A stretch of 25,728 bases of DNA, from the IMG/VR virus record IMGVR_UViG_3300031841_004836, positions 1 through 25,728 of that record, one strand, 5' to 3'. The notes below the pieces were generated by a model, which did not search any database, was not told the DNA's origin, and saw only the letters and a program-made list of their open reading frames with translations. A program made the position numbers and the translations under genes. Position 1 is the stretch's first letter, and each line of letters starts with the position of its first letter. This document shows positions 2,935 through 18,321 of the stretch, in pieces. Source of the stretch: a virus.

Positions 2935-3807
2935 TTAATTCTTTTCTTTCTTTACAGCAAGCGTTATATATTTAGATAAATCTTTATGAATTGCTAATAT
3001 ATTTATTCCAACACTAGCTATTATTTTATAATCGATTTCTTCAAAGAAATCCATAAACCATTTAGAAGAATAACTTCCTCTACGTTCAATATCTGTTACC
3101 CATAGACCGTTTGGATCTTCTGGAAAATGTTCAACAAATAATATTGGCTTTTTGTTTTTTATAAATTTTTTAGAATTTTCTAAAATAATTCCTTCAGTTC
3201 CTTCAGTATCTATTTTAACGAGTACAAAATTATATTCATCATCATCAGAATATAAAAAATCTAATGAACAACATGTTATTGGTTTATGATCAACAACTGA
3301 ACATAGTGAATCATTTCTAGCAAGTTTTTCATCTGGATGTAAACTTGTACATCCGTAATTTGATACAATTTTTTCATCATAAACTGGAAGATTAACTGTC
3401 GTGTAATTTTTACCTATAGCTATAGACGAAACATTTACATTTGGAAGATGAATTGTATTTAAACAAGATATGTTATAAAGTGATTCCATTGGTTCATACA
3501 TATCAATGTGAACATTTGGGTTATTAATAGCCCAATACCTGCCATATAAACCAAAATTACAACCTATATCAATAATTTTATTTTTTTCATATTTTGTGAA
3601 AAGAGATTTACATTTTTGATAGATATCATTTAAAATTATAATTTCATTATGATCATGAGCTTGTTTAGTATTTTTTATACTTTGTGTTTGATTAATATCA
3701 TAACGATGCACAGCAATAGAACCATATGCAGTATCATGCACTACATCAACAAGTTGTAAAAATGGATATATCACAATACGGCTAACATTTCTTAAGTATA
3801 AATTCAA
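2935..3807 (-). CDS. FkbM-family SAM-dependent methyltransferase, 290 aa
   Basis: The class I methyltransferase core is clear. SAM motif I is IIDIGCNFGLYG (about 78-89), the acidic end of strand 2 is DMYEPM (102-107), and a later VKIDTEGTEGIIL followed by PILFVEHFPED is diagnostic of the FkbM family. Members O-methylate sugars or polyketides and are common in capsule, LPS and phage glycan loci. The N-terminal 60 residues are less typical. The gene overlaps the upstream methyltransferase gene by 26 nt, implying translational coupling. It most likely methylates a sugar made or transferred by this island. The substrate cannot be read from sequence. Confidence 0.8.
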   Translation of the reverse strand: MNLYLRNVSRIVIYPFLQLVDVVHDTAYGSIAVHRYDINQTQSIKNTKQAHDHNEIIILNDIYQKCKSLFTKYEKNKIIDIGCNFGLYGRYWAINNPNVHIDMYEPMESLYNISCLNTIHLPNVNVSSIAIGKNYTTVNLPVYDEKIVSNYGCTSLHPDEKLARNDSLCSVVDHKPITCCSLDFLYSDDDEYNFVLVKIDTEGTEGIILENSKKFIKNKKPILFVEHFPEDPNGLWVTDIERRGSYSSKWFMDFFEEIDYKIIASVGINILAIHKDLSKYITLAVKKEKN

Positions 3808-4360
3808 TTGCGCATTCTATTGCAGGATGCAGTGTTTGATCTTGATCTCCAGCATTTGGATAATAAAAATCACGAATAACTTCTATTTTTTCAACAGTAG
3901 CAATATGTTTCATTTCTACTAACATTTCTAATAGGTTAATGCTTTTAGGCATAAACGAATTTGAAGTTAAAGTAAATGACCATTTATGATCATCATTATA
4001 CTTACTAGGCCAATGACCGTGTTCATACATTTCTTCTTCTGGAATAGTAATAACTAAATGACCATATTGTTTACACACTCGAATCCAATTACGTAATGCT
4101 TCATGCGGATCTACCATGTGTTCTAAGCAATGGCTACTAACAACAAAGTCATATGTATTATCATCAATACCATTTAAATATTGTGCATCACCGTCTGGTA
4201 AATCCCAAGGTCTAACTTCTCGTATTCCTCTAAATACATGACGAAGATTGCCAAGATTATCTTGGCCACATCCAATATCTATTCCATCACCTATAAAATA
4301 TCGGTTATGGAAATTACCATCGTCAAATCTACGTTTTGCAGCTTTTGTTTGTTCATGCAT
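3782..4360 (-). CDS. class I SAM-dependent methyltransferase, 192 aa
   Basis: A compact Methyltransf_11-like protein. GIDIGCGQD (about 26-34) is SAM motif I, DGDAQYLNGIDD is the motif II region, and YDFVVSSHCLEHMVDP (about 71-86) is the typical motif III with the 'H.LEH' signature of sugar and lipid methyltransferases. LVITIPEEE follows on the next strand. The length is normal for a single domain. The 26-nt overlap with the following FkbM-like gene and the short gap to the dehydratase gene above place it within the sugar operon. It probably methylates a nucleotide-sugar or glycan, although small phage-encoded methyltransferases with other substrates exist. Confidence 0.75.
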   Translation of the reverse strand: MHEQTKAAKRRFDDGNFHNRYFIGDGIDIGCGQDNLGNLRHVFRGIREVRPWDLPDGDAQYLNGIDDNTYDFVVSSHCLEHMVDPHEALRNWIRVCKQYGHLVITIPEEEMYEHGHWPSKYNDDHKWSFTLTSNSFMPKSINLLEMLVEMKHIATVEKIEVIRDFYYPNAGDQDQTLHPAIECAIEFILKKC

Positions 4361-4366
4361 AATTAA

Positions 4367-5317
4367 TCACCATATAAAATTATTTTTGTAAAATTCAACT
4401 ATTTCTGGTAATTCATTATCAAAAATAGTTTGCGGTTTCCATCCTAAAGATTTTAATTTAGAATCATCAATTGAGTATCTAATATCTTGACCAGGTCTAT
4501 GATAAGAAAAATCTATAAATTTATCATAATTTATATCATTATAATATTGATTTATTATTTTTTTAACAACATTAAGATTGCTATCTTCATAATTACCAGA
4601 TATATTATATATTTGGTTTATTTCATTAGATTCTATTATTTTAAGTATAGCATTTGCTGTGTCTTTAACGTTTAACCATGTTCTCTTAGGTTTACCATTT
4701 TGGTGTAAAGGTATTTGTTTTCCTAATGTAAGATATTTACATGTCTTAGGAATTAATTTTTCTGTATATTGACCAATACCATAATTATTTGTAGGTCTTA
4801 CTATTATATATGGAACATTAAAAGTTCTATTCCAAGCTAAAATTAACATATCAGCTGCTGCTTTTGTTGCACTATATGGATTACTTGGTTTTAACAAATC
4901 AGTTTCTGTATGAGATCCAACTTCAATATCTCCATAAACTTCATCAGTACTAAAATGCAAAAAAATAGGCATTTTATGTCTATGCTTATCTTTTATTAAA
5001 TTTAATAAATGATGAACACCATTCACATTACTCATTAAAAAAACATTTGAATTTATTATACTATTATCTACATGAGATTCTGCTGCAATATTAATTACAT
5101 AATCACATTCATATAATGAATCAAGTTCATTAATATCTTTTTGTAAGAATTTAAAATTTTTATATGTAAGTAAATCGTCTAAAAAAATATCATGGGAAGC
5201 ATAAGTTCTTTTATCAACACCTATAACTTTATGTCCTTCATCTAATATTTTTTTAGTTGTATGATAACCTATAAAGCCTAAACACCCAGTAATATATATT
5301 ATATTTGTGAATAGCAT
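4367..5317 (-). CDS. NDP-sugar 4,6-dehydratase-like SDR enzyme, 316 aa
   Basis: An extended short-chain dehydrogenase/reductase of the RmlB type. The Rossmann glycine motif is TGCLGFIG (10-17). INIAAESHVDNSI (75-87) and the STDEVYG block with catalytic Thr124-Asp125-Glu126 follow, then Tyr148/Lys152 in PYSATK and RPTNNYG. The C-terminal RPGQDIRYSID is the sugar-nucleotide binding segment of dTDP- or CDP-glucose 4,6-dehydratases. Asp-Glu after Thr is the 4,6-dehydratase signature, so the expected product is an NDP-4-keto-6-deoxyhexose. The nucleotide (dTDP or CDP) cannot be decided by eye; the RfbH-like 3-dehydrase nearby favours a CDP-sugar. The gene is strikingly A+T rich, and its start overlaps the preceding reductase gene by 19 nt. 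Confidence 0.82.
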   Translation of the reverse strand: MLFTNIIYITGCLGFIGYHTTKKILDEGHKVIGVDKRTYASHDIFLDDLLTYKNFKFLQKDINELDSLYECDYVINIAAESHVDNSIINSNVFLMSNVNGVHHLLNLIKDKHRHKMPIFLHFSTDEVYGDIEVGSHTETDLLKPSNPYSATKAAADMLILAWNRTFNVPYIIVRPTNNYGIGQYTEKLIPKTCKYLTLGKQIPLHQNGKPKRTWLNVKDTANAILKIIESNEINQIYNISGNYEDSNLNVVKKIINQYYNDINYDKFIDFSYHRPGQDIRYSIDDSKLKSLGWKPQTIFDNELPEIVEFYKNNFIW

Positions 5318-6120
5318 TCAAATCCCCTTTCTAATCCTTGAAATTGATTAGAATATTTTTTTATTCTTTCAGCATTACCGGTATAATTATTAATTTTCTT
5401 ATTTTCAATTTTTAATAAATTTATGTCTAAATTATTAGCTTTAACAAATAGTTTTAAAATATCACTTAATAGCATTTTATTTTCATAAACACAATTTATA
5501 TCTTTAAATTCAATTCCAAACTTTATAATATTTTCAATTACTATTGCAATATCATTTACTGATATAAAATCAAAAAAACGATCTTCTTGTAATGTAAATA
5601 CATTATTATCATTTAAAGTATATAATATTTTTTTAAATAAACGATTTTGATCTTCTGTTTTGTCGAAACACCCAAAAATTCTTAAATTACAAAATTTATT
5701 GTTTAATGTATGAATTAATCTTGTAATAATATTTTTACTTAAACCATAAGTATGATTTGGAAATGAATTAAAAACTTCGTGTTCTTTAACATTCATTAAA
5801 TTTTTTTCCAATCCAAATTCAGCACCAGTACCAATATTAATTAATATATCATAATATTCTTGATATTCAACTAAATTTAAAAAGCTATTTAAATTATTAT
5901 TTAATATAGTAGTGTCATGACTTAATGGATCATATCTTCCTTGTGCTGCGCAATGAAGAATTATATTTGGTTTAATAGTTTCTAATAACTGTTTAACATG
6001 TATTTTATTACATGTGTTTAATTCAAGTTTAGAAAAAGCATAAACTTCATATTCTTTTTTAAAAAATGAATTTAAATATTTTCCTAAAAACCCATTAGCT
6101 CCAGTTATAAAAATTTTCAT
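5299..6120 (-). CDS. NAD(P)-dependent sugar epimerase/reductase (RmlD/YerF-like SDR), 273 aa
   Basis: The Rossmann motif is ITGANGFLGKYL (5-16), HCAAQGRYDP follows in place of the usual AA(Y/H)V(D)xxE segment, and catalytic Tyr125/Lys129 lie in YGLSKN. The GTGAEFG sequence (about 97-103) precedes them. The shortened, simplified fold resembles 4-ketoreductases such as RmlD and fucose synthase rather than dehydratases. In a pathway with a 4,6-dehydratase, a 3-dehydrase and a YerE-like TPP enzyme, the expected role is reduction of the keto group at the branch or C4, as YerF does for yersiniose. This is inference. The gene is very A+T rich and overlaps both neighbours (19 nt with the dehydratase, 4 nt with the TPP enzyme). 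Confidence 0.7.
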   Translation of the reverse strand: MKIFITGANGFLGKYLNSFFKKEYEVYAFSKLELNTCNKIHVKQLLETIKPNIILHCAAQGRYDPLSHDTTILNNNLNSFLNLVEYQEYYDILINIGTGAEFGLEKNLMNVKEHEVFNSFPNHTYGLSKNIITRLIHTLNNKFCNLRIFGCFDKTEDQNRLFKKILYTLNDNNVFTLQEDRFFDFISVNDIAIVIENIIKFGIEFKDINCVYENKMLLSDILKLFVKANNLDINLLKIENKKINNYTGNAERIKKYSNQFQGLERGFECYSQI

Positions 6121-7871
6121 CTTTTATATTTTATAAATTGGTTATTATCATCAAATTCAGATTGTGTTACATAAGGAAATTGATCATTAATAGGACGACC
6201 CATTTCAAGTTTAGGTTCAATTAAGGTTCTTTCATCTAATTCAATTTCTATTAAACTGCGATTTGTATTAAAAATATTTTCATTTATATCAGATAATTTT
6301 TTTATCAAATGATATTCTAAGCTATAAGCATTTGCAATTTTTTGAAAATTAGGTTGGCCCGGGCCTTTACCTTTACCAGTAGCTTCATAGCGACTTTGCA
6401 TATACGTATCTTGAAATTGTTTAATCATCCCAAGGCCTTTATTATTAAAAATAATTATTTTAATATCAAGATTATATTCAATCAAAGTTTGGAATTCTTG
6501 AATGTTCATTTGAATTCCACCATCCCCATTAAAACTAATAACTTGTCTATTAGGATTCATAAGTTTAGCGCCAATAGCAGCCGGTAAACTATATCCCATA
6601 GCGTAATGACCAGAACTTGTAATTAGTTTTTCATCTTTTTTACGATTATATGATTGAAATACCCATACATGATTAGCACCGGCATCTGTAAATAAAATAG
6701 AATCATTATCTAAATAATTTGATATTTTTTCTATAGCACTATATGGATTTAAAGAATTATAAGTAGAAGAGCTAGTACTGATATCTTTATTTAAAAATTT
6801 ATTTTTTATGTTATTAATATATAATGGCCATTCGTCATTCATATTAATATCGCATTTAACTAATTTTAAAATATCAGGTAAACACATGAGATCAAAACAA
6901 GATATAGTATATTGTTCTGGATCATATTTGTATAATTCTTCTATATCAATATCACATACCATAATTTTTGCTTTTGGAGCAAAAGATGTAGTATTACCAG
7001 AGCGTTGACGATTATCTAGTCTAGAACCAAATACAATAATTTTATCTGCATTTTGAATAATATAATTTCCGCCTCGATTTCCATAAACACCAAAATGACC
7101 ACAATATAAAGGATTTTGATGGTCAAAAGAATTTAGTGCAGACCAACTAGCAACAAATGGTATATTATTTTGCGTTAACCATGATTCTAAATGTTTCTCA
7201 ACACCAGCAAGTTCAGCGCCAGCTCCAAAAACAGCTAAAGGTCTTTTTGCATCTATTAAAAAATTGCTAATAGAATCACTAATATCATTATAATTATAAT
7301 GATTGTTATGGTAATCATAATATTCCGGAAGAACTAATTCATCTCCAACATCTTCAGTTTGAACATCCATAGGAACATCAACTAAAACAGGTCCCATACG
7401 GCCATTAAACATTTCTTCAGCTGCTTTTTTTAATGCTTGTTTAAGTGTATTAGCATCATGAACTGCTACAGAATAATTAGTAATATTTTTTACCATATTA
7501 ACAATATCCATCTGTTGAAACCCAGCTTGTCTAACTTTTGCATTTCTATATTGAGCTTGCTCTTTTCCATTTACTTGGCCAGTAATATGAAAACTAGGTA
7601 TACTATCATAATAACCACATGCAATACCAGTTATTAAATTACTAGCACCAGGACCAGATGTAGAAAATGTTGAACCAATTTTTTTAGTAGTTCTCCATAC
7701 TGCATCAGCAGCCATTGCTGCAGCTTGCTCGTGTTGAAAACACTTATATTCAATTCCATGTTCTTGTGCAAGACTGTCTAACATAAAAGCACAAGCTCCG
7801 CCTTGAACCAAATATACTTGCTCAATTCCAATTTTTTTTAAAAATTTTGCTATATATTCTGAACCTTTCAT
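6117..7871 (-). CDS. thiamine diphosphate-dependent enzyme, acetolactate synthase/YerE-like, 584 aa
   Basis: The three-domain acetohydroxyacid-synthase architecture is complete. The Pyr domain has the activating glutamate E48 in HEQAAAMAADA and the SGPGASNLITG loop (72-82). A central domain follows (about 195-340). The PP domain carries the ThDP/Mg motif GDGG (449-452) and ends with NN at 476-477. A housekeeping acetolactate synthase is possible, but the position between an SDR reductase and a sugar 3-dehydrase, with a 4,6-dehydratase next in line, points instead to YerE-type enzymes. These transfer an acetyl unit from pyruvate to C4 of a CDP-3,6-dideoxy-4-keto sugar to give branched sugars. 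The ATG overlap with the reductase gene suggests coupling. Metabolic context, not sequence detail, drives the YerE reading. Confidence 0.8.
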   Translation of the reverse strand: MKGSEYIAKFLKKIGIEQVYLVQGGACAFMLDSLAQEHGIEYKCFQHEQAAAMAADAVWRTTKKIGSTFSTSGPGASNLITGIACGYYDSIPSFHITGQVNGKEQAQYRNAKVRQAGFQQMDIVNMVKNITNYSVAVHDANTLKQALKKAAEEMFNGRMGPVLVDVPMDVQTEDVGDELVLPEYYDYHNNHYNYNDISDSISNFLIDAKRPLAVFGAGAELAGVEKHLESWLTQNNIPFVASWSALNSFDHQNPLYCGHFGVYGNRGGNYIIQNADKIIVFGSRLDNRQRSGNTTSFAPKAKIMVCDIDIEELYKYDPEQYTISCFDLMCLPDILKLVKCDINMNDEWPLYINNIKNKFLNKDISTSSSTYNSLNPYSAIEKISNYLDNDSILFTDAGANHVWVFQSYNRKKDEKLITSSGHYAMGYSLPAAIGAKLMNPNRQVISFNGDGGIQMNIQEFQTLIEYNLDIKIIIFNNKGLGMIKQFQDTYMQSRYEATGKGKGPGQPNFQKIANAYSLEYHLIKKLSDINENIFNTNRSLIEIELDERTLIEPKLEMGRPINDQFPYVTQSEFDDNNQFIKYKR

Positions 7872-7875
7872 GATA

Positions 7876-9183
7876 TTATACCTCTAATATAAAATTGTCT
7901 AATACGCGACCAATATATTCTATTTGCTCTTTAGATATTATTGGGCTTGTTCCATGAAAAAAAGTATTTGTCATAGAAAAAGTAGCATTTGGGTATTCAT
8001 TATATGCTTCTTGTTGATTCATTAAATGAGTATAACCAGGTTGAAGTATAATATTACCAGCAAAATATGGTCTTGTTTGTATTAAATTATCTTCAAAATA
8101 ATCAACTATTTTATTTCTATTAAATGGTGCAGTTTTCTTGATAGTTAAAGGAAAAGCAAACCAACTTGGATTAGATTTCTCTGTAGCCACGGGTAAATGA
8201 AAAAAATCTTCATATTTAGAATAAATATCAAAAAGTAATTTATAATTTTCTCGTCGCCTTTTATGTATTTCATCTAATTTATCTAACTGGCAAAGACCTA
8301 TTGAAGCTTGAAGTTCAATAGGCTTTAAATTATAACCTATTTCATCATAAACGTATTTATGATCAAAGATCTCATCAGGCATCGATGGTACCCAATTACT
8401 AAAACGTTTTTTGCAAGTACCACATTTTAATTTATTTGCTTCGGGCCCAATGCAATAGCATCCACGACCCCATTCACGAAAAGATCTTAAAACAACTTCT
8501 AATTCATTAGTTTTGCACGCTACAAATCCACCTTCTCCCATAGTAATATGATGAGCAGGATAAAATGAACAAGACGCCATTTCGCCAAATGATCCTAATG
8601 GATTTCCATCATACTCTGATCCTAAAGCGTCACAGCAATCTTCTAATAATATTAAATTAAATCGTTTTACCAAATCCATAATAATATCCATATTAGGCGG
8701 ATTCGCAAGAACGTGTGCAAATGTTATAATTTTAATATCAGGATTTTCATATAATTTTTTTTCAACTTGAGTTAAATCTAGATTTAGAGTATCAAGTTCT
8801 ATATCAACAAAAATAGGTTCAAATCCTAATTGAAGAATAGGATTTAATGTAGTAGGAAATCCAGATATAGGAACTAATACCTTTGTTCCTTTATTGAAAT
8901 TATACGTTCTTTTGCTAGTTAAAGCTGCCATCATTAAAAGATTAGATGATGATCCAGAATTAGTTAAAATTCCATGTTTTTTATTAAAAAGTCTTGGGAA
9001 TTTTCTTTCAAATTTTACTGCGTCATTCCCCATGACTAGCCAGCCTTTTAATATAGTTTCAATTGCGGCTAAAGGTTCTGACTCATCAAAAAAAGGACCA
9101 GAATATGGTATAAAATCTTTTCCAGGTTCCCATTTTTTTTGTATTTGAGAATTTTCAATCAATTTTTTAATTATATCTTTCAT
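7876..9183 (-). CDS. PLP-dependent sugar 3-dehydrase (DdhC/RfbH, E1-like), 435 aa
   Basis: This is a member of the DegT/DnrJ/EryC1 aminotransferase fold with the dehydrase hallmarks. In SFYPAHHITMGEGG (207-220), His211 stands where aminotransferases carry the PLP-binding Lys, as in E1 and ColD. C184, in EDCCDALG, is followed after 57 residues by C242-x-C244, then C254 and C257, which matches the [2Fe-2S] cysteine pattern of CDP-6-deoxy-glucoseen-forming E1 (C-x57-C-x-C, then a further Cys). Length and the C-terminal region fit RfbH. The reaction expected is removal of the C3 hydroxyl from CDP-4-keto-6-deoxyglucose, with an E3-type reductase supplying electrons. No E3 gene is in the window, so the host or another phage gene would provide it. 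The start overlaps the upstream GT gene by 4 nt. Confidence 0.82.
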   Translation of the reverse strand: MKDIIKKLIENSQIQKKWEPGKDFIPYSGPFFDESEPLAAIETILKGWLVMGNDAVKFERKFPRLFNKKHGILTNSGSSSNLLMMAALTSKRTYNFNKGTKVLVPISGFPTTLNPILQLGFEPIFVDIELDTLNLDLTQVEKKLYENPDIKIITFAHVLANPPNMDIIMDLVKRFNLILLEDCCDALGSEYDGNPLGSFGEMASCSFYPAHHITMGEGGFVACKTNELEVVLRSFREWGRGCYCIGPEANKLKCGTCKKRFSNWVPSMPDEIFDHKYVYDEIGYNLKPIELQASIGLCQLDKLDEIHKRRRENYKLLFDIYSKYEDFFHLPVATEKSNPSWFAFPLTIKKTAPFNRNKIVDYFEDNLIQTRPYFAGNIILQPGYTHLMNQQEAYNEYPNATFSMTNTFFHGTSPIISKEQIEYIGRVLDNFILEV

Positions 9184-9881
9184 TTTATTATTTTAACTTT
9201 TTCATGGGTAGAAGACTGAATTTCGTTAAATACTTTCAATCTCATATCATTAACAACGCCTGGAAGTTGTAAAGCAAAATCGCCAGTTTGATATTCTCCA
9301 TCTTGTTTAGTATAAGGATCTAAATATGGAGCTGTATATTGACCACCGTAAAGACCATATAGATAAGAATTCATAAGTCTTTGTGGCATTACTTTCATTA
9401 TATATTGCGATAAATGATTTTGTTGATAAAAAGCCCAAATGGCTCCTTGTTCAAATGGCCATGCTCTAACTGATTGTTCTTTAGTGGTTAATATCCATTT
9501 TAATAAACCTTTAGATATTAAACTATTTCTAATTAAATGCGAATCGATATTAATACCATTGACATCTGCACATAAAATTTGCTGATAATTATTATCAATA
9601 ATTGATTCTAATTTGATTGTAAAATTAGTTATTAAAAGATCAGTTCCAGTAAACCAAATCCATTCTATATCTGGATGATGCTCAAATACATTAAGAATAA
9701 AATTATATTTTTCATAATATAAGTATTGAGGTTCAAAACAAAAATCTTTTTCAGTACAATGAAATGTACTATACCCATGTCTTTTAGCATATTCAACTTT
9801 ATTATTAAACCAAGTTATTTCAGCCATTTCTTTAAAATTAGAATTATTAAAAGAAACTAATGCTATGTTACTTCTGTCCAT
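9180..9881 (-). CDS. GT34-like (galactosyl/mannosyltransferase) glycosyltransferase, 233 aa
   Basis: A GT-A-type protein resembling family 34 transferases. After an N-terminal strand (IALVSFNN) comes NNKVEYAKRHGYSTF, typical of the 'N...Y...hGY' start. Then EWIWFTGTDLLITN (about 73-86) takes the place of the metal-binding 'W.DaD..i.N' motif, here with TGTD rather than a perfect DxD. FEQGAIWAF (about 143-151) matches the 'DQ.a.' acceptor segment, and TGDFALQLPGV (about 200-210) the conserved 'GD...H.PG'. It is the first gene of the sugar island, overlapping the 3-dehydrase gene below and the zinc-ribbon gene above (19 nt). It probably attaches the sugar made by this island; the acceptor is unknown. 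Confidence 0.65.
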   Translation of the reverse strand: MDRSNIALVSFNNSNFKEMAEITWFNNKVEYAKRHGYSTFHCTEKDFCFEPQYLYYEKYNFILNVFEHHPDIEWIWFTGTDLLITNFTIKLESIIDNNYQQILCADVNGINIDSHLIRNSLISKGLLKWILTTKEQSVRAWPFEQGAIWAFYQQNHLSQYIMKVMPQRLMNSYLYGLYGGQYTAPYLDPYTKQDGEYQTGDFALQLPGVVNDMRLKVFNEIQSSTHEKVKIIK

Positions 9882-10219
9882 ATTGAATTATCCTCAATAA
9901 AATAATCTAATTCTTCTTCATCCAAATTAGGTGGAATAGCTAAATCTTCAGCGTCAATTGCTGCAGCAAATTCATTGCTATCATGTTCAACGACACTTGC
10001 ATTATTTTTACGTACTGCGCTTAATTGCCATCGTTTTACTTCACCTTCATCAGTTTCGAAAAAATATTTTTTATTTGCTATTGATTTATTTTTTCGTTGT
10101 TGATCAGTCCATTCGCGAACATTACCACAACTACGACTGCAATATACCCTGCGTTTAGTGTGTTCGGCTCCACACCTTGGACATATTTTAATCTTTTTTG
10201 GTTTCCTTTTCCCCATCAT
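9863..10219 (-). CDS. zinc-ribbon-like protein, 118 aa
   Basis: The basic N-terminus is followed by two Cys pairs, C13-x2-C16 (CPRC) and C27-x3-C31 (CSRSC), which look like a small zinc ribbon for nucleic-acid or protein binding. The middle (about 36-70) is basic and polar. The last 35 residues are strongly acidic (DAEDLAIPPNLDEEELDYF), a split charge layout seen in small phage regulators. There is no known family match by eye. It overlaps the 65-aa gene above by 32 nt and the GT gene below by 19 nt, so it belongs to the same transcript and may be translated by coupling. Confidence 0.6.
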   Translation of the reverse strand: MMGKRKPKKIKICPRCGAEHTKRRVYCSRSCGNVREWTDQQRKNKSIANKKYFFETDEGEVKRWQLSAVRKNNASVVEHDSNEFAAAIDAEDLAIPPNLDEEELDYFIEDNSIWTEVT

Positions 10220-10385
10220 CTTCGCCTAGAATAGCTTTAATAGACATTTTATGTCTTACAGTTGAAGCATGATATTCTGCAGCAGCCATCGTTCTTTTAT
10301 ATAGACCACGTTCATGCGGATCTAGAATCTGATCTGCAATAATTTTAGTCCGCGACGACATTTTATAATTTTTGTCTGGTTTCAT
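10188..10385 (-). CDS. small basic protein, 65 aa, unknown function
   Basis: This is a short, charged, probably helical protein (MKPDKNYKMSSRTKIIADQI at the start, acidic/basic tail GEDDGEKETKKD). There is no membrane segment or Cys motif. It starts 18 nt after the stop of the PqqA-like gene with a plausible ribosome site (AAGGA before AATATTATG). It overlaps the zinc-ribbon gene by 32 nt. The function is not recognisable. Conserved spacing with pqqA could hint at a shared role, but nothing in the sequence shows that. Confidence 0.55.
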   Translation of the reverse strand: MKPDKNYKMSSRTKIIADQILDPHERGLYKRTMAAAEYHASTVRHKMSIKAILGEDDGEKETKKD

Positions 10386-10403
10386 AATATTCCTTATAAA
10401 GTA

Positions 10404-10478
10404 TTAGCGGTTATTAATATACATTGTGATTTCAAAGCCAAAACGGATATCGTTATATACAGGTGTTTCCCAAATCAT
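10404..10478 (-). CDS. pqqA: PqqA-like peptide, PQQ precursor, 24 aa
   Basis: The ORF encodes a 24-residue peptide beginning MIWETPVYNDIR and ending FGFEITMYINNR. Its length and nearly every position follow PqqA, the ribosomal peptide from which pyrroloquinoline quinone is made. The Trp near the start, Pro6, the D-(I/L)-R motif and above all Glu16-x3-Tyr20 are present; PqqE joins that Glu and Tyr. From memory, Pseudomonas PqqA contains DLRIGFEVTMY at the same place. The start codon overlaps the stop of the 54-aa gene above as ATGA, and GGAG lies 8 nt upstream, so it is well placed for translation. No pqqB-F genes are in the window, so modification would rely on host enzymes. It is easily missed because of its size. 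Confidence 0.85.
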   Translation of the reverse strand: MIWETPVYNDIRFGFEITMYINNR

Positions 10479-10639
10479 ATTCTTTCTCCTAATTTAATTT
10501 TAAGTTGCCGATTTTCTTCCATACATTCTGCCAATTGTTTTTCAATATTTCTATATCCATCATTTAACCATTTATATTTGGTCATTAATTTTTCAAATTC
10601 AAAAAACAATTGATCATGACGGTTAATACAATCAAACAT
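10475..10639 (-). CDS. 54-aa coiled-coil protein
   Basis: The ORF runs from an ATG preceded by a strong ribosome site (GGAGAAGTCT then ATG) to a TGA that overlaps the PqqA-like start. The product is helical and charged with heptad-like leucines in its second half (NIEKQLAECMEENRQLKIKL). The start overlaps the end of the DUF3445 gene by 8 nt. No family is recognised. Being locked between the HODM-like and PqqA-like genes, it is probably co-translated with both. A PqqD-like chaperone would be about 90 aa with a winged-helix fold, and this does not resemble it. Confidence 0.6.
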   Translation of the reverse strand: MFDCINRHDQLFFEFEKLMTKYKWLNDGYRNIEKQLAECMEENRQLKIKLGERI

Positions 10640-11450
10640 AGACTTCTCCTACTGTTTGGTTTATAATAGTTTTAATATCATGAAGATTCTTATACGTAAG
10701 AATATCTTCACTCATACTATTTATACTATTTGTTATAAGATTTCTATGAGTTTTAAAAACTTCTATGAGAGGAATAATATTTATTTTTATAAGGAATAAA
10801 GCTGTAGAGTTTTTAATAATTGGAACTGTAGTTTGTGTTTCTACTCTTAAAAATAAGTCATTAATTTTTTCAGGCTTTTTCCATTTATCTTTATATTTTG
10901 GATGCATAGACATATTATCAGTTGGTGCAATAGTCCAAATATGGCGACAAAACATGTGGTTTCCACATATTGCAAGCGGCATTGACTTCATAGCACGTAA
11001 TAATTTTTTATTATCTGCGACTGGTTTATGAATATCTACTAAAGATAAATCTTTTTTTTCTAATGGATTCCAATTCGTTGGAGATGCAAAATAGCCAGCA
11101 ATTAATTTTCCATCATGTATTATCCCAATATCTTCTTCTATTTGAAGGGATAGTAATGAAATGATCATTTTGCTCGATAAAATTTCATTATTTAAACCTT
11201 CTATTTCTAGTTTAAATTTTTGATATATGTCCCATTTTTTCTGATATGTATTAATTTTCTTCAATATTTTAAATAAAATATCAGAAGGTATTTCCCCAAA
11301 AGATATTGCTGTACCTAACTCATTTTCTTTTATTTTATGAATTAAAGATTTATGTGTTATTCGTGAAATAGGATTCCCTTCAAACTTAAACATATAAGGT
11401 TCCATTGTAAATGGAACTTTAATTATACTATTGTAATTAAGGGATGACAT
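10632..11450 (-). CDS. DUF3445 / haem-dependent oxidative N-demethylase (HODM) alpha-like protein, 272 aa
   Basis: The middle and C-terminal parts carry the signature blocks of DUF3445. YFASPTNWNPLEKKDLSL (120-137), VDIHKPV (138-144), the RHIWTIAP segment (169-176) with a later MHP (182-184), and LFLRVETQTT (199-208) followed by STALFLIKI (215-223) match the family's 'P..W...eK.g..l..IH.PV', 'r.nW.i....L', and 'LRvErQtl.rlP.s.a.lFtIrt'. The family includes the haem-binding alpha subunit of HODM, which oxidatively demethylates secondary amines such as dimethylamine in methylotrophs and marine bacteria. Reductase subunits are absent here. It has no clear Shine-Dalgarno sequence and overlaps the 72-aa ORF above by 28 nt, suggesting coupled translation. 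Family call is good; activity and substrate are unknown. Confidence 0.72.
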   Translation of the reverse strand: MSSLNYNSIIKVPFTMEPYMFKFEGNPISRITHKSLIHKIKENELGTAISFGEIPSDILFKILKKINTYQKKWDIYQKFKLEIEGLNNEILSSKMIISLLSLQIEEDIGIIHDGKLIAGYFASPTNWNPLEKKDLSLVDIHKPVADNKKLLRAMKSMPLAICGNHMFCRHIWTIAPTDNMSMHPKYKDKWKKPEKINDLFLRVETQTTVPIIKNSTALFLIKINIIPLIEVFKTHRNLITNSINSMSEDILTYKNLHDIKTIINQTVGEVYV

Positions 11451-11641: not shown

Positions 11642-12156
11642 GCTGGCTCCTCTGTTTTCCAAGTAGCAAATTTGCTTTTTTCAATTTGATAAAAGTTACG
11701 ATATGCTTGAATCGTATTTCCTTCTACTTTTAAAGTATCAGGCATGCATTGAGGCGGATCTACCCAACCATTATCTTTTAAGTTATTAGGTGTATCAAAT
11801 AGGTATCCACGAAGATCTGATGCTTTGTGTATTTTACCATATCTTATAGTATATTCAAGACATAAATGCATCCACATGGTCCATAACCATCGGTAATGTT
11901 GAGACGACTCTCTAATCCATGTATTAGATGGATGATTTACATGTGAAGCTTTATATAAGGCCTCTTCACGTAAATCATTTAATGCCCACCTTTTAATACG
12001 TCGATTATCTGTTTTACTATAGTATTCTTCACCATCCATAACGCGATGGCATGTACTTAAAAGTTGAGCATATTCGGTGGCCATTTTAACTACATGTTTA
12101 TCACAATGCATTTGCGCACAAGTAGATTCATTTTTATCTAAATAAAATATATTCAT
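11617..12156 (-). CDS. conserved T4-like phage protein of unknown function, 179 aa
   Basis: The protein begins MNIFYLDKNESTCAQMHCDK then HVVKM, has a HPSNTWIRES segment (about 75-84), a Trp/Tyr-rich helix (YRWLWTMWMHLCLEYTIRYG) and ends with PQCMPD, AYRNFYQIEKSKFATWK. I recall proteins with this pattern (Cys/His N-terminus, 'HP...W.R.s..NY.WL', 'AYR.YY...K..faKW') in many marine T4-like phages, without a known function. Conserved Cys14, His18/Cys18-type residues and several His could bind metal. It starts 4 nt inside the end of gp41, so it is co-expressed with replication genes, hinting at a DNA-metabolism role. It is not DenV: the sequence lacks the pyrimidine-dimer glycosylase pattern. Confidence 0.7.
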   Translation of the reverse strand: MNIFYLDKNESTCAQMHCDKHVVKMATEYAQLLSTCHRVMDGEEYYSKTDNRRIKRWALNDLREEALYKASHVNHPSNTWIRESSQHYRWLWTMWMHLCLEYTIRYGKIHKASDLRGYLFDTPNNLKDNGWVDPPQCMPDTLKVEGNTIQAYRNFYQIEKSKFATWKTEEPAWYQAQAV

Positions 12157-13535
12157 GCAAAATCCTTAAATTTATCCAATATACTTATAGTATCAGATGA
12201 TTCTGTGAAATTATTAGAAGGAATATCACTTGTAATTAAATCTTGTTGCGATGATTGCTCAGTATTATATAATCTCATTTTAGCACGGTCTACACCAACA
12301 ATAAATTTACGATTATAATTAGGATCACTATAACGATTCTTTAATTGCTTAACAAGAATCTGATTTAACTGAGCCATTTTTTCATTTGTAATCAATGCAA
12401 ACATAAAATCAGCAGTTGCCGGTAAACCAAATGATTCTGATACATCTTCAAGCCCAACATCTGTACTTGTAAAACCTGTACGATTCGTTTGTGTTGCACT
12501 TACGATAGGAACATTAGCTTCTACCGCTAATCCACGTAATTCTTCGGCAATTGCTTTCACATATGTATAAGAGTTTATATTTGCTCCAGTTTTAATACGT
12601 GATGATGCACAAATATTAATATAATCAATATAAATTATATCAGGTATAAACCCTCTTTTCATTTTCAATTCATTAAGTAAATAACGGAAATTACCGGCAT
12701 GAGCAGATGCTGTTGGATATTCCTTTACAATTAATTTACCAAATGTCTTTTCTTTTACTTTAGTAATTTTCTTTTCATATACATCATATGGAAGATCTCT
12801 AAGTTCATCAAGATTGATATCAAGTAAATTTGCATCAATACGTTCAGCAATGCGTTCTTCGGCCATTTCTAATGTAATATATAGAATGTTTTTGCCGTCC
12901 TCTAAATTTTTTGCTGCGCAATGACACATAAACATACTTTTACCGACGCCGGTACCGGCGAGGCATATATTAAGTGTTTTACGACTTAAACCCCCTTTCG
13001 TAATCTTATTAAAGTATTCAAGATCAAATGCTATTTTATCTTCTTTAAGATGATAAAGATCGTATCGGTGTTCCCAATCTTCAACAAAATCATGACCAAC
13101 ATTAGTATCAAAAGTAACTGCTAATGCTTTAGTTAGCATATCAGGAATAGAGCCTTTAGCTAAATTAGATTCTCCTCCATTAATTACATTAATAGATTCT
13201 GATAAGGCATTATATAATGCTTGGTCTTGACAGAATTTTTCACTTTCATCTATAAGCCATTCGATATCTGTAGTTTCATCTCGTTCCAGACTACGAATAA
13301 TATCACTACCGTCTTTGAACACTTGTTCGCTAAGATCATCTCGAGATTCAAAATCAATAGTTAAAGCTTCGATTGATGGTACAGTATGATACTTATCTGT
13401 ATATGCTTTGATCGTATTAAAAATAAATTTATAAGTAAAATCTTTAAAATAATCCTCCTTAATAAAAGGTAAGGCTCGATTAACATATTCTTCATTAAAC
13501 AGTAGATTCGACAGAATCGTCTTCTCGATCGTCAT
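12153..13535 (-). CDS. 41: T4 gp41-like replicative DNA helicase, 460 aa
   Basis: A DnaB/RecA-fold helicase. The N-terminal helical domain starts MTIEKTILSNLLFNEEYVNR, much like T4 gp41. Walker A is AGTGVGKS (193-200) and Walker B is IIYIDYINI. An ATQTNR segment follows, then VGVDRAKMR near the end, probably the arginine-finger region. The length is close to T4 gp41 (about 475 aa). It forms a hexamer on the lagging-strand template and with primase gp61 makes the primosome; gp61 is not in this window. The start lies 41 nt inside uvsX. The good N-terminal match to gp41 supports this start despite the overlap, so uvsX and 41 are translationally linked. Confidence 0.92.
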   Translation of the reverse strand: MTIEKTILSNLLFNEEYVNRALPFIKEDYFKDFTYKFIFNTIKAYTDKYHTVPSIEALTIDFESRDDLSEQVFKDGSDIIRSLERDETTDIEWLIDESEKFCQDQALYNALSESINVINGGESNLAKGSIPDMLTKALAVTFDTNVGHDFVEDWEHRYDLYHLKEDKIAFDLEYFNKITKGGLSRKTLNICLAGTGVGKSMFMCHCAAKNLEDGKNILYITLEMAEERIAERIDANLLDINLDELRDLPYDVYEKKITKVKEKTFGKLIVKEYPTASAHAGNFRYLLNELKMKRGFIPDIIYIDYINICASSRIKTGANINSYTYVKAIAEELRGLAVEANVPIVSATQTNRTGFTSTDVGLEDVSESFGLPATADFMFALITNEKMAQLNQILVKQLKNRYSDPNYNRKFIVGVDRAKMRLYNTEQSSQQDLITSDIPSNNFTESSDTISILDKFKDFA

Positions 13536-14556
13536 CCATTTCTCCTATTCCATAGCTAAATTCTTTTTTAGCTGCTTCATCTAGTTGCATAAGAATTTCT
13601 TGACTATAAATTGATTCCGGGTTTTCATTAATTTGTTTACCGTAAACTTTACTGCCATCTGCTAATTCATATTTAACACCTGTCTTTTTAATAATATTAT
13701 ATTTTTCAGCAAGAGGAAGTAGACCATAATACTTGTCTAAACCGTGCTTATATGATATTCGCACTTCAGCTTCACCATTTTCTTTACTTAATCGTGATTT
13801 ATACATCTTAACTTTTACAATATTACCAATAATATTAGTACCATCGCGATCTTTTTTCTTGCCTAGAGTTGCAATTGATGATGCTGCATACTTTAATCCT
13901 GAACCACCTGAAATTTCATTCTGCGGTACATAAGAACCAATTGCGGCATAAACATGATTAGTAAGAATTAATGGAACATTTACTTTTGCTAGTTTAAGTG
14001 TAAGAACACGAAATGCAGCTTTAATCACTTGAGATTTAGACATATCACGCGTCTCTTTACCTTCAGCCGTATCTTCCATTTCTTTAGTCGTAGATAAAAG
14101 ACCAAGTGAATCAAGAACCATCATAAATGGTGGACGATCATCACCTGAGTTACCATAATAATCGAGTGTTTTAATTGCGTGTGTACGGAATTTTTGAATA
14201 GTATCGGGTTCTGATATAATCACACGCGATGTATCAATACCTCGACTTTCCATCATATCTCTTGTTACTGCAGCTTCTGTATCATAATACATTACTCCAG
14301 CTTCTGGATGAGAATCTAAGAAGGCTTTAACGATTCCAAGAACAAAGAAAGTTTTGCCAGTGCTCGATTCGCCAGCGAAAGCAGTAATTTTATTGTTTGA
14401 AACACCACCAAAAATGCTGCCGCTAAGAACAGCATTAAGAATGTAACTGCCAGTGTCAATGCATCCGCTATACTCAGAGGAGCCTTTTCCATCAGATGCA
14501 ATAGAGGTATCTTCATCTTTCAATTCCTCCACAAGATTTTTTAGAAAACTTGCCAT
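13495..14556 (-). CDS. uvsX: T4 UvsX-like RecA-family recombinase, 353 aa
   Basis: A RecA-fold ATPase with Walker A GESSTGKT (62-69), a YYDTEAAV strand after it, Walker B region FMMVLDSLGLL and the loop LILTNHVYAAIG. ISGGSGLKYAAS is a RecA/UvsX hallmark. The acidic C-terminus (MDDDREDDSVES) resembles the regulatory tail of RecA-like proteins. It is slightly shorter than T4 UvsX (391 aa). It binds ssDNA and drives recombination-dependent replication and repair with gp43 and gp41. GAGGTGA is a good ribosome site 6 nt before the ATG, and a promoter-like sequence lies at 14586-14614, so it may head its own transcript. Confidence 0.92.
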   Translation of the reverse strand: MASFLKNLVEELKDEDTSIASDGKGSSEYSGCIDTGSYILNAVLSGSIFGGVSNNKITAFAGESSTGKTFFVLGIVKAFLDSHPEAGVMYYDTEAAVTRDMMESRGIDTSRVIISEPDTIQKFRTHAIKTLDYYGNSGDDRPPFMMVLDSLGLLSTTKEMEDTAEGKETRDMSKSQVIKAAFRVLTLKLAKVNVPLILTNHVYAAIGSYVPQNEISGGSGLKYAASSIATLGKKKDRDGTNIIGNIVKVKMYKSRLSKENGEAEVRISYKHGLDKYYGLLPLAEKYNIIKKTGVKYELADGSKVYGKQINENPESIYSQEILMQLDEAAKKEFSYGIGEMDDDREDDSVESTV

Positions 14557-14585
14557 TTTTCACCTCGCTTTTTTTTCATTAATAA

Positions 14586-14614
14586 ATTGTACTATAAATA
14601 GATAAATAAGTATA
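14586..14614 (-). promoter_or_regulatory. promoter-like sequence upstream of uvsX (copy C)
   Basis: On the minus strand TATAC (14614-14610) and TACAAT (14591-14586) are 18 bp apart, as in the gp43 copy. The surrounding bases also align: TATATACTTATTTATCTATT here against TATGTACTTAATTTATTTAT upstream of gp43. The -10 box is less perfect (TACAAT). It lies in the 70-nt gap between the membrane protein gene and uvsX. In such A+T-rich DNA the similarity could be partly chance. Confidence 0.4.
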
Positions 14615-14626
14615 TAAGATATTTAT

Positions 14627-15442
14627 TTAAATATTAATTCTCAAATCTTTATCGCCAGCTTTTATTGAAAAGCTTTTTGATATAGGACGACTAAACATTT
14701 TTTCTCGTGACAAAGAAACATTTGCAGCAATTAATAACATAACAGCTAATGGGTCAAAGGCGGTTACTATTAAAATAATAACTACTCGGACGGTATTTTC
14801 AAGATAATCATTTGCTGTTTCTCCATATATAAGTTCAGCAATATACTTAAGGGGACCAACTTCAGCTTCTAATGATCTTCTTTCTTTTTGTAAATCTTCA
14901 ATTTCCAATTTATAAATCATCATAAGTTCCATACTTTCTTGTATAGAATTTAAAAGATCTTTTCTTTCTTCTTTTTGAGATTGTCTAATCGCCAACGCTC
15001 CGTCTTTACCACGGATTCTATCGTAGTCAAGAAGAGTTTCAACTGATTTGTCAAGTTGTTCAAGTACTCGTTCTGCATCATTAATTTTATTTTGTTCAAA
15101 ATCAATTTTACGTTGAACTAATTGTATTTGGCCACTACTATCGCCTTGTTCAACCGTTTGTTGTATATGTGCTTTTGATAAAAATCCAAAAATTCCCATC
15201 GATGTAATAATCATTAAAATAACAATAGCAGAAGTAAGATACAATTTTAATAGGTTTGGAGTATATTTCCAATTTCTATAAAGCCAACTTGCTGATACTA
15301 GTTTACCAACTTCAAGTACAGAACCCATTACAACGATTGGCCAAAAAGCCGAAGAAAAGATAGTAGTAAGACCGACAATAGAATAATAGGCGGCAACTGC
15401 TGAAATTGATATAGCAGTAAAAAGTGTTATATAACTAATCAT
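14627..15442 (-). CDS. coiled-coil membrane protein, 271 aa, conserved in marine T4-like phages
   Basis: Hydrophobic segments are visible at about 3-30 (ITLFTAISISAVAAYYSIVG), 34-50, 66-88 (LYLTSAIVILMIITSMGIFG) and 214-242 (VRVVIILIVTAFDPLAVMLL). Between the third and fourth lies a long charged helix, about 100-195, with clear heptads (KIDFEQNKINDAERVLEQLD), likely an extended coiled coil on one side of the membrane. I recall similar proteins between gp43 and uvsX in marine T4-like phages, with unknown function. The place inside the replication operon suggests early expression; membrane anchoring of the replisome or superinfection control would be guesses. Confidence 0.7.
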   Translation of the reverse strand: MISYITLFTAISISAVAAYYSIVGLTTIFSSAFWPIVVMGSVLEVGKLVSASWLYRNWKYTPNLLKLYLTSAIVILMIITSMGIFGFLSKAHIQQTVEQGDSSGQIQLVQRKIDFEQNKINDAERVLEQLDKSVETLLDYDRIRGKDGALAIRQSQKEERKDLLNSIQESMELMMIYKLEIEDLQKERRSLEAEVGPLKYIAELIYGETANDYLENTVRVVIILIVTAFDPLAVMLLIAANVSLSREKMFSRPISKSFSIKAGDKDLRINI

Positions 15443-15445
15443 TAG

Positions 15446-15772
15446 TTAGGCAGAAATATCTTCTCCGACAAGTTCATTTACCTTATTAATAAAGATTTGC
15501 ATTTTTTCTGCACGGTTTGGCCAATACAAATATGTCTTTTCGCTATCTTTAGATAAATTTACTAATAGAGGCATAACAGCACTATATAAATCTTGAAGTT
15601 TTTCATTATAATATGCTGCAGTTTTATTGACTTCTTGTTCAAACTCTTCTTTAACAGCAGTTGCAGCAGCTTGCGCAGCAAGTTCAGCAGCTTCCTGCTC
15701 GCGCTTCTCCATTTCTTCTTCACTAATCGCAAAGAACCCGAAGTCATTATCAAAGTTTGTTATATTGGTCAC
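15446..15772 (-). CDS. 108-aa hypothetical protein following gp43
   Basis: An acidic, Ala/Glu-rich protein (EEEMEKREQEAAELAAQAAA, residues about 17-36) followed by a second helical region and a C-terminal aromatic stretch (TYLYWPNRAEKMQIFINKVN). It is probably helical and may form a coiled coil; there is no membrane segment. The start overlaps the end of gp43 by 4 nt and its stop is 3 nt from the membrane protein start, so it is translated as part of the gp43 transcript. Overlapping ORFs on both strands in this stretch are shadows of it. No family is recognised. Confidence 0.65.
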   Translation of the reverse strand: MTNITNFDNDFGFFAISEEEMEKREQEAAELAAQAAATAVKEEFEQEVNKTAAYYNEKLQDLYSAVMPLLVNLSKDSEKTYLYWPNRAEKMQIFINKVNELVGEDISA

Positions 15773-18321
15773 TCGAATAAATCCTCTAATGTATTAGTAT
15801 TACGTTCAACTTTCCAATTAATTTTATCAGTAATACCCTTTAAAGGCTCGATAAAGGCTTTTTGGAATTGCGTCTCACGATCTATATATTTATCTAGACC
15901 AAACTCTTTTGGTATATTATCAAGACAAGAAATTACATTACTACCATATACATTATTAAATAGATAACAAAATTTCACTTTATCACCAGTTTGTATCTTT
16001 TCATATTTTTTATCTAAATCTTTAGATTTAAGAAGGTGATTATATAGTATGGCCCCGCGGACGTGAATTGGCGTACCCTTTGCAAATAATCTATCTCTAG
16101 ATCTTGCAAATTTTTTCATATTGTTACAACCTCGAGGAAACGCAATCTCTTCGTACGGTAAATTCATAAAAGAATCTTTAAATTCAATAATATAATTTAA
16201 TAATTCTTCATTATCACCTAACATAATAATATTTAATGCATTTTTAATCGATTCTCTACATGATGAAGGCGTCGACGACTTAACGGCTTCGATGCCCATC
16301 ATTTTAAGTTTAGGTGATGAATATCTTACACCTTCTGAATCATGTACATTTAGAATATACCGTTTTTTTGCAGTCCATATAGCTTTATCTGCAATGGACT
16401 CACGCTTCATTTTCATCTTTTGTTCATACGCCTGAGTATACTCGGCTAGCCTTTCATAACTTTTATCGATTAGAGGCTCGAGCGCTTGGGAACAAACTTT
16501 ATCTAAAAAGTCAATTACTTCAGATGTCTTTGAATGTGGATCATCAAATATTTGATTAACTAAACCACTCATATCAATATAAATTGAATCAGTATCAGAA
16601 GCAATAATATAATCTTTGTTTGTTTTTAATTGTTTATTTAAATATCTATTTACTTCTTCTTCAACCCAACGAATTGAAACCTGTCCGGCTATAGTAATAC
16701 ACTCGGCCAATGCAATTTGATAATATCGATAATATTGATTACCGAATGCGCCATAAGCTGAATTTAACATAATTTTAAAAGCCATTTGCAAATTATTATA
16801 TTTTGATATATCTTTTTGCAATTGGAATGATTTATTTTTTTCATATTCCTTTTGGCATTCAATCATTTTATTCTTATAAATGGTACGCTTATTATAATAT
16901 AGTTCCATTAGTTCTGGAAGAAATCCATATCTATCTTTTGTAAAAATGCATCGATTCGGTGTTTTGATGGAATCTACATCCCATTTTTCTGCTTCACCAT
17001 TTAGAAAAGCATCGATATTCTTTTCACCTGGAACTTGACCAATATAAGTTTCCGGTGAAATATTATATTGCATAATTAGATGAGGATACAAACTATTTAA
17101 ATCGAAAGAACATACCCAATCATGCATACCAATTTGAGGAGATTTGACATATGCACCTAAAAATGATGTATGTTCAATATCATTTCCATCTAAACTTTCA
17201 CTTATACCATATGGAGTGTATTTAATTGACTCAATACTATTTTTTGGAGTTACTACAATATTATGCTCCATAAGATAGTTATGGCATATGATATCCCAAA
17301 GTTTAACAACGCCAAATGTATCAGTATAATTGACTTTAGCTGAATATGCCATAGCATAAACGAGCTCGATTAACTTAAGCTTATCTTCAAGTCTTTGCAC
17401 TAAATGGACGTCTTTAATATTATAATCCATATAAGTTTGAAAATCATTTTGATACAACTCATTTAATGTACCTTCAAACTGAAGCTTCTTTTCACCTAGT
17501 TCAACAAAAGCAATATGATCTAACTTATAAGATTCTTGATTGGTATATGTAAATTTGCGATAAAGTTGCAAATAATCTAAAGTGGCAACACCTACTATTT
17601 CAAAAACATGAAATACTCCATTACTTTTACCACGACTTACTTCTCGCTCATCGATACGGTTCCAAGGTGAAAGACGATTTGCTATACTTGGAGCGCACAC
17701 TTTGCGAATGCGATTAATTAGATATGGTATATCAAATGATTCTATATTCCACCCAGTTACTACATCTGGTGAAACAGAACCCCATACGTCTACAAACTTA
17801 CGTAGTAAATCAGATTCTGAATTACATTTAATATATTTAATATTTTTATCTTCATTTTCATAGTCTTTCATACCAATAGACATTGTATACCCTTTCCAAG
17901 AAAGGCTAATCGCCGTTACCACGCTATTTGCATCTTCTGGATTAGGAAACCCGTCTCCACTATCTACCTCAATATCAAGATACGCAACACGAATTTGTTC
18001 GGGGTCATACTGTATTTCATTTCGAAATTTATCGAAGATATATACGTAAGCTAAATTTTTACCATCTTGCCCATGTAAAATATAGTTACTAGTTTCGGAG
18101 TATTCTGCAGCAGTTTGTTTAGCTTCTTTAATTGAATCAAAATGAAGCTTTTCTACCGGAATTCCATTAAGAGTTTTATATGTAGAATCTTCTCTCTTAG
18201 TTTCTACAAAAAGATAAGGCTTATATGGAATTTTTTTCTTAATTTGTTTACCGTTTTCATAGCCACGGTAAAGAATATTGTTGCCGAATTGCACAAAGGA
18301 AGTATAAAACATTAATTCCAA
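15769..18321 (-). CDS. 43: T4 gp43-like family B DNA polymerase, 850 aa, intact
   Basis: This is the replicative phage polymerase with 3'-5' proofreading. Exo I is YLDIEVD (D116, E118), Exo II is VTGWNIESFDIPY (D197) and Exo III is YMDYNIKDV (D304). Polymerase motif A is SFDLNSLYPHLI (405-416), motif B is KIMLNSAYGAFGN (516-528) and motif C is ASDTDSIY (574-581, catalytic DTDS). KLKMMGIEAVKSSTP is the KKRY/thumb-type segment. The C-terminus ends NTLEDLFE, a clamp-binding-like tail with LEDLF. It is shorter than T4 gp43 (about 898 aa) but carries all motifs; no intein, intron or split is seen. It has its own promoter and a leader inverted repeat, and a terminator lies just above. Confidence 0.96.
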   Translation of the reverse strand: MELMFYTSFVQFGNNILYRGYENGKQIKKKIPYKPYLFVETKREDSTYKTLNGIPVEKLHFDSIKEAKQTAAEYSETSNYILHGQDGKNLAYVYIFDKFRNEIQYDPEQIRVAYLDIEVDSGDGFPNPEDANSVVTAISLSWKGYTMSIGMKDYENEDKNIKYIKCNSESDLLRKFVDVWGSVSPDVVTGWNIESFDIPYLINRIRKVCAPSIANRLSPWNRIDEREVSRGKSNGVFHVFEIVGVATLDYLQLYRKFTYTNQESYKLDHIAFVELGEKKLQFEGTLNELYQNDFQTYMDYNIKDVHLVQRLEDKLKLIELVYAMAYSAKVNYTDTFGVVKLWDIICHNYLMEHNIVVTPKNSIESIKYTPYGISESLDGNDIEHTSFLGAYVKSPQIGMHDWVCSFDLNSLYPHLIMQYNISPETYIGQVPGEKNIDAFLNGEAEKWDVDSIKTPNRCIFTKDRYGFLPELMELYYNKRTIYKNKMIECQKEYEKNKSFQLQKDISKYNNLQMAFKIMLNSAYGAFGNQYYRYYQIALAECITIAGQVSIRWVEEEVNRYLNKQLKTNKDYIIASDTDSIYIDMSGLVNQIFDDPHSKTSEVIDFLDKVCSQALEPLIDKSYERLAEYTQAYEQKMKMKRESIADKAIWTAKKRYILNVHDSEGVRYSSPKLKMMGIEAVKSSTPSSCRESIKNALNIIMLGDNEELLNYIIEFKDSFMNLPYEEIAFPRGCNNMKKFARSRDRLFAKGTPIHVRGAILYNHLLKSKDLDKKYEKIQTGDKVKFCYLFNNVYGSNVISCLDNIPKEFGLDKYIDRETQFQKAFIEPLKGITDKINWKVERNTNTLEDLFE

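Follow-up and report, generated by a model that had tools for sequence, protein, structure and literature searches.

A phage gene set, most likely for the synthesis of a rare branched deoxysugar, belongs to a widespread, little recognised viral module

Carbon-branched (C-branched) dideoxysugars are rare and are known from a few O-antigens and antibiotics. The classes of thiamine diphosphate (ThDP)-dependent enzymes described for keto-sugar branching are the YerE-like enzymes, the alpha-ketoacid dehydrogenase (alpha-KADH2) type and the split-gene transketolases (PMC12247030), the latter two having been proposed for this reaction in actinomycete antibiotics, and the split-gene transketolases being known to date from Streptomyces clusters alone (PMC12247030). 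In the yersiniose pathway of Yersinia pseudotuberculosis O:VI, 4,6-dehydration is followed by 3-deoxygenation through an E1-type dehydrase, addition at C4 by a YerE-like enzyme, and reduction of the new branch (PMC12247030, PMC4753412); for the YerE-like enzymes, structures exist of PpYerE and JanthE (PMC12247030). No report of a phage yersiniose pathway, or of any phage pathway for a C-branched sugar, was found in the literature searched. Here we describe a comparable set of four predicted activities, encoded by four consecutive genes (positions 4367-9183, minus strand) of the virus record IMGVR_UViG_3300031841_004836 from IMG/VR, of which positions 1 to 25,728 were analysed (hereafter the window, i.e., the whole 25.7 kb stretch, which is a fragment of a phage genome).

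The four-gene set most likely builds a rare branched deoxysugar. More specifically, we assign a probability of roughly 0.7 to its being a phage operon for a nucleoside diphosphate (NDP)-activated, probably deoxythymidine diphosphate (dTDP)-activated, 3,6-dideoxy-4-C-branched hexose made from host precursors. The original prediction, made from the sequence alone, had placed genes of four families here, and all four open reading frames (ORFs) were confirmed at their coordinates with family matches far above chance. They are transcribed in the order E1, ThDP enzyme, short-chain dehydrogenase/reductase (SDR2) and 4,6-dehydratase, with a gap of 4 bp between the E1 and ThDP genes, an overlap of 4 bp between the ThDP and SDR2 genes, and an overlap of 19 bp between the SDR2 and dehydratase genes.

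The ThDP enzyme (6117-7871, minus strand; 584 amino acids (aa)) contains all three TPP_enzyme Pfam domains and the ThDP motifs E48, G449-D450-G451 and N477. Generic family models label it as acetolactate synthase. Its nearest solved structures are 5ahk, which we take to be PpYerE, and 8rph, both ahead of acetohydroxyacid synthase (AHAS). The structure 8rph is that of JanthE, a characterised YerE-like enzyme (PMC12188165). In phylogenetic trees, the AHAS sequences (IlvB, IlvG, IlvI and plant enzymes from Salmonella, E. coli, Staphylococcus, Acinetobacter and Arabidopsis) formed one group, and the window enzyme together with both YerE-like enzymes formed the other, with support of 98 and 94 in the Shimodaira-Hasegawa-like approximate likelihood ratio test (SH-aLRT). 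Forcing the phage clade into AHAS lowered the log-likelihood by 78, with a p-value of 0.000145 in the approximately unbiased (AU) test. An identity as AHAS is thus rejected by tree and test alike, and the YerE-like assignment of the original prediction is upheld: by its sequence, the enzyme is of YerE-like rather than AHAS ancestry, and carboligase activity on a keto sugar is predicted for it. Within the YerE-like group, it falls in a virus-specific subclade, the sister group of which is formed by bacterial enzymes (46-50% identity) that often adjoin E1 and cytidine diphosphate (CDP)-glucose genes. A Tardiphaga locus (L040), for example, combines a cytidylyltransferase (TIGR02623, 442 bits), a CDP-glucose 4,6-dehydratase (TIGR02622, 468 bits), E1 and the ThDP enzyme, and a cytidylyltransferase above cut-off was present in 8 of the 9 genomes with these bacterial sister enzymes vs. 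1 of 14 control genomes. A plasmid search with the ThDP enzyme returned matches at the level of AHAS only. Most of the hits to AHAS genes in records filed as phage (OR84xxxx, AFYI01 and CAKLQH02) seem to be bacterial DNA, and the Salmonella AFYI01 records are placed under Bacteria by their own taxonomy.

The first gene (7876-9183, minus strand; 435 aa) is firmly assigned to the E1-type pyridoxamine phosphate/[2Fe-2S] NDP-4-keto-6-deoxyhexose 3-dehydrases (RfbH/DdhC/AscC-like). It exceeds the cut-off of the RfbH equivalog model NF011936 (437 vs. 423 bits) and matches PDB entry 3bcx over its full length (333 bits, E=3e-98). Its H211 aligns with H220 of 3bcx, and since this His replaces the Lys that binds pyridoxal phosphate in aminotransferases, an aminotransferase function was rejected. 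The alignment gives C184, C242, C244 and C257 as the Fe-S ligands, in agreement with the His211 and C184-X57-C242-X-C244 proposed earlier; as to the fourth ligand, for which both C254 and C257 had been named, C257 is kept in full-length viral homologues, whereas C254 is replaced by R, K or N in many viral relatives and was discarded because it is not conserved. Among 190 full-length viral E1 homologues, the HH motif is present in 188 and the C-X-C...C part in all. The last Fe-S spacing is C-X-C-X12-C in the window E1 and X11-13 across the viral homologues, compared to X7 in the five bacterial E1 proteins examined, and because of this longer stretch before the last Cys, the Fe-S loop of the phage E1 contains a short insertion.

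The dehydratase (4367-5317, minus strand; 316 aa) has TIGR01181 (RmlB) as its best model (296 bits) and contains YxxxK and, at residues 124-126, the TDE triad, as in dTDP-glucose enzymes, where the bacterial CDP-type enzymes of the Tardiphaga locus and of locus L042 have SDK. Against the model of CDP-glucose 4,6-dehydratase, TIGR02622, it reached 66 bits with a cut-off of 278, and among 15 related viral contigs there was no CDP-type dehydratase above cut-off. A CDP-type identity is rejected by the model score and by the active-site residues of the window enzyme; the CDP-glucose basis first envisaged is thus not supported, and the pathway is probably dTDP-based, as far as can be judged from the sequence of this enzyme.

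The remaining enzyme, SDR2 (5299-6120, minus strand; 273 aa), is an extended-SDR reductase with matches to PF01370 (64 bits) and PF04321 (53 bits) and, by sequence, to RmlD. Its AlphaFold model has a mean predicted local distance difference test score of 94.6, with guanosine diphosphate (GDP)-fucose synthases and RmlD as the closest folds. The G7xxGxxG13 motif, Tyr125 and Lys129 (Y125xxxK129) are conserved among its relatives, apart from one in which the Lys is absent. SDR2 directly follows the ThDP gene in most relatives, whichever type of ThDP enzyme is present, and this position suits reduction of the new branch, the role proposed here; a function as 4-keto reductase is also possible, which makes SDR2 the weakest link of the scheme.

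We propose the following scheme, in which the substrates, the dTDP basis, the pyruvate donor, the reaction order, the product, the transfer by a GT34-like enzyme and the use of the glycan are all inferred. The RmlB-type enzyme would convert NDP-glucose from the host, most likely dTDP-glucose, to NDP-4-keto-6-deoxyglucose, from which E1 would strip the hydroxyl group at C3, using electrons that a host ferredoxin or reductase provides; the result would be NDP-4-keto-3,6-dideoxyglucose. The YerE-like enzyme would then decarboxylate a 2-oxo acid, probably pyruvate, and add the acyl group onto the C4 ketone to form a branched tertiary alcohol, the branch keto group of which would be reduced by the RmlD-like SDR2. 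Finally, the adjacent GT34-like transferase may put the sugar on a glycan of the host surface or the virion.

The scheme depends on a contribution by the host. E1 requires a reductase partner, E3, with ferredoxin, flavin adenine dinucleotide and nicotinamide adenine dinucleotide domains. Among 28 related viral contigs, which reach 327 kb in length, a Fer2 domain was found in none, and NAD_binding_1 was found in 0 of 14 of them, while nucleoside triphosphate (NTP)-transferases were detected in 3 of the 28 with low scores, most contigs having no clear sugar-nucleotidyltransferase. Neither the glucose-1-phosphate cytidylyltransferase nor the E3 reductase that the original prediction had suggested looking for was found in the related contigs. 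Because neither E3 nor a nucleotidyltransferase was found there, dTDP-glucose and the electron donor for E1 are probably supplied by the host, and the pathway can be called near-complete, as it was at first, only if this contribution is included. In one related locus, L205, a 508 aa fusion of an NTP-transferase and an APH-kinase (9773-11299) lies shortly after the phage E1, in the place of the ThDP module.

To describe the cassette across uncultivated phages, we surveyed the best 80 hits per scan with profiles built for this analysis; as the loci come from different contigs, some of them near-identical, the counts below describe close relatives and not frequencies. The YerE-like version was found in about 20 viral contigs with a nearly constant E1-ThDP-SDR order. 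Seeding with E1 gave 84 viral loci that extend 4 kb or more downstream, in which a ThDP module was sought within 6 kb; a ThDP carbon-carbon ligase was present in 69, usually adjoining E1, and none was recognised in the other 15. The 69 modules were YerE-like (24), split transketolases (18), alpha-ketoacid-dehydrogenase-like (14), split YerE-like (12) and, in a single locus, two together; the pairs of 207 and 179 aa ORFs following E1 are E1_dh plus Transket_pyr by Pfam, i.e., alpha-ketoacid-dehydrogenase-like. Loci seeded by the phage RmlB clade had a ThDP carboligase in 54 of 56 cases, and some of the loci scored as lacking E1 are cut off just at that gene. As a control, loci seeded by a cyanophage GDP-mannose-dehydratase-like gene had none (0/20), this control being small and some of its loci short. 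The original prediction had regarded such a pathway as unusual for phages, which the survey contradicts, the module being common in uncultivated phages.

Mapped on the E1 tree, the module type switches some 20 times, and the well-supported branches alone force several changes per type; the ThDP modules have therefore been exchanged repeatedly around a conserved E1. Since all keto-sugar-branching ThDP classes occupy one slot beside E1, branching of a deoxy keto sugar is the best explanation for their common function. The related loci also differ in composition. In L033 (9317-12230), L008, L023, L153 and L212, E1 is separated by a class I/II aminotransferase from a split ThDP enzyme that consists of two ORFs, one with the N and M domains and one with the C domain; this aminotransferase could supply an amino-acid-derived 2-oxo acid donor. 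In L012 (9296-10380) and its relatives, a short split transketolase directly follows E1, with a Transketolase_N-like protein of 202 aa and a Transket_pyr protein of 159 aa, the third domain being absent, while L025 (9201-10363) and L166 (9290-10461) have an alpha-KADH2-like pair of E1_dh-like and Transket_pyr proteins between E1 and the SDR reductase.

The module is widespread in phages and little recognised. In a virome study, an acetolactate synthase was listed among viral metabolic genes next to rfbG and rfbE and was assigned to amino-acid pathways (PMC8226683), a global-ocean catalogue removed contigs with lipopolysaccharide (LPS)-type genes (PMC11360552), and the PHROGs entry for the family, phrog_11199, is labelled function unknown; together, these points may account for the module having been overlooked.

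Several observations weigh against the proposed pathway. The E3 reductase that E1 needs was found in none of the 28 related contigs, and to our knowledge all well-studied E1/YerE pathways use CDP sugars, a dTDP-based E1/YerE pair having no tested precedent. The score of the dehydratase lies below the TIGR01181 equivalog cut-off (296 vs. 365 bits), which is why we word the nucleotide as probable. The SDR2 family spans both 4-keto reductases and branch reductases, so its role is the least certain of the four, and the survey percentages, drawn from the closest relatives, are not independent counts.

The nature of the branch is a further point. The YerE-like enzyme, the E1 residues and the gene context support a C-branched pathway, as predicted originally, but not specifically yersiniose, a 3,6-dideoxy-4-C-(1-hydroxyethyl)-hexose, since the donor acid varies among YerE-like enzymes. 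A branch that is longer or functionalised, as in erwiniose or caryophyllose, formed from a 2-oxo acid larger than pyruvate, is a tentative possibility: the donors of YerE-like enzymes range from C2 to C8 and ErwE refuses pyruvate (PMC12247030), and the aminotransferase of some related cassettes is a possible source of such an acid, whereas the window cassette contains neither an aminotransferase nor an aldolase. Unlikely, in our view, is a CDP-yersiniose pathway with CDP-glucose provided by a host cytidylyltransferase, pyruvate as the donor and CDP-yersiniose A or B as the product. It would fit with E1 being nearest to the CDP-specific RfbH (3bcx) and with the CDP-glucose genes beside the bacterial relatives of the ThDP enzyme, but against it stand the RmlB-like dehydratase with TDE instead of SDK and its low TIGR02622 score, and the lack of CDP-type dehydratases above cut-off in the 15 viral contigs; besides, the rarity of CDP-glucose pyrophosphorylase among the control genomes (1/14) means that most hosts would not supply CDP-glucose. 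That SDR2 reduces the C4 ketone itself to give an unbranched 3,6-dideoxyhexose, the ThDP enzyme acting on another acceptor, agrees with the fold of SDR2, which is closest to those of 4-keto reductases (GDP-fucose synthase, RmlD), but is made improbable by its place directly behind ThDP genes of any type in most cassettes. An acetolactate synthase of amino-acid biosynthesis adjoining the sugar genes by chance, as the generic annotation and the virome study with its IlvB/G/I homologue beside rfbG and rfbE (PMC8226683) would have it, can practically be dismissed given the AU test, the constant slot between E1 and SDR in relatives, and the absence of a regulatory-subunit gene beside the ThDP gene.

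Taking the branched-sugar pathway as the preferred explanation, we consider it about an even chance that the loci represent a modular phage cassette, in which a phage-specific dTDP-type dehydratase, an E1 whose Fe-S loop is extended and an SDR reductase surround one slot for four interchangeable kinds of ThDP carboligase, giving different C-branched sugars that would diversify surface or virion glycans made by the phage. If true, the cassettes would hold many uncharacterised carboligases for the synthesis of chiral tertiary alcohols and would account for some of the viral genes that are currently placed in central metabolism as "acetolactate synthase" or "transketolase". They would also hint at an arms race in which rare surface sugars are at stake, and the repeated replacement of one ThDP enzyme by an unrelated one in the same slot would provide a clear example, from nature, of the swapping of enzyme modules.

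The genes flanking the cassette that are named next, and the replication core, are all on the minus strand. A gene for a GT34 (GMA12/MNN10-type) glycosyltransferase (9180-9881), a candidate user of the sugar that has the same position in several relatives, lies upstream and overlaps E1 by 4 bp, so the operon continues from GT34. Downstream are two methyltransferases, an S-adenosylmethionine (SAM) methyltransferase (3782-4360), a relative of which lies upstream of GT34-E1 in loci L002, L066 and L086, and an FkbM-family methyltransferase (2935-3807), a candidate glycan modifier, together with a possible GT9/heptosyltransferase-like protein (2047-2919) recognised by eye, with no Pfam or NCBIfam match. 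A T4-like replication and recombination core of gp41-like helicase, UvsX and gp43 polymerase (12153-18321) lies a few kb from the cassette on the same contig, which places the cassette in a phage genome; gp43 and UvsX share 48% and 57% identity, respectively, with cyanophage proteins. Elsewhere in the window we observed a protein resembling the alpha subunit of haem-dependent oxidative N-demethylase (10632-11450; PF11927, 74 bits) in this T4-like phage, a threonine-dehydratase-like protein (22908-23780; phrog_7093, E=5e-34) without a Pfam match, and a small protein (18797-19309) that looks by eye like a heat-shock protein of the Hsp20 type, such as other T4-like marine phages have.

Compared to the described systems, the window set differs from the yersiniose pathway of Y. 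pseudotuberculosis O:VI in being phage-borne, in its dTDP-type instead of CDP-type dehydratase, in its longer E1 Fe-S loop, and in that a phage nucleotidyltransferase and E3 were not found in related contigs. The LPS-type clusters of cyanophages (S-H68, RN05-S) contain an E1 homologue of about 41% identity, annotated as CDP-4-dehydro-6-deoxyglucose 3-dehydratase, among glycosyltransferases, but in RN05-S no ThDP carboligase is annotated in the stretch around it. With E1/RfbH (CDP-6-deoxy-L-threo-D-glycero-4-hexulose 3-dehydrase, 3bcx), the window E1 shares a full-length match, the His in place of Lys and the four Fe-S Cys, and differs in the X12 instead of X7 spacing and in its RmlB-type partner dehydratase. 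PpYerE and JanthE are the closest solved relatives of the ThDP enzyme and stand on the same side of the tree, 5ahk having the canonical GDG, while the window enzyme belongs to a virus-specific subclade whose sister enzymes come from bacterial E1/CDP-glucose clusters. The alpha-KADH2 and split-gene transketolases of actinomycetes have counterparts of both types in the ThDP slot beside E1, in phage relatives (L025, L166 and L012) and not in the window itself, and the sugar to be branched there is proposed to be a 3,6-dideoxy-4-keto hexose.

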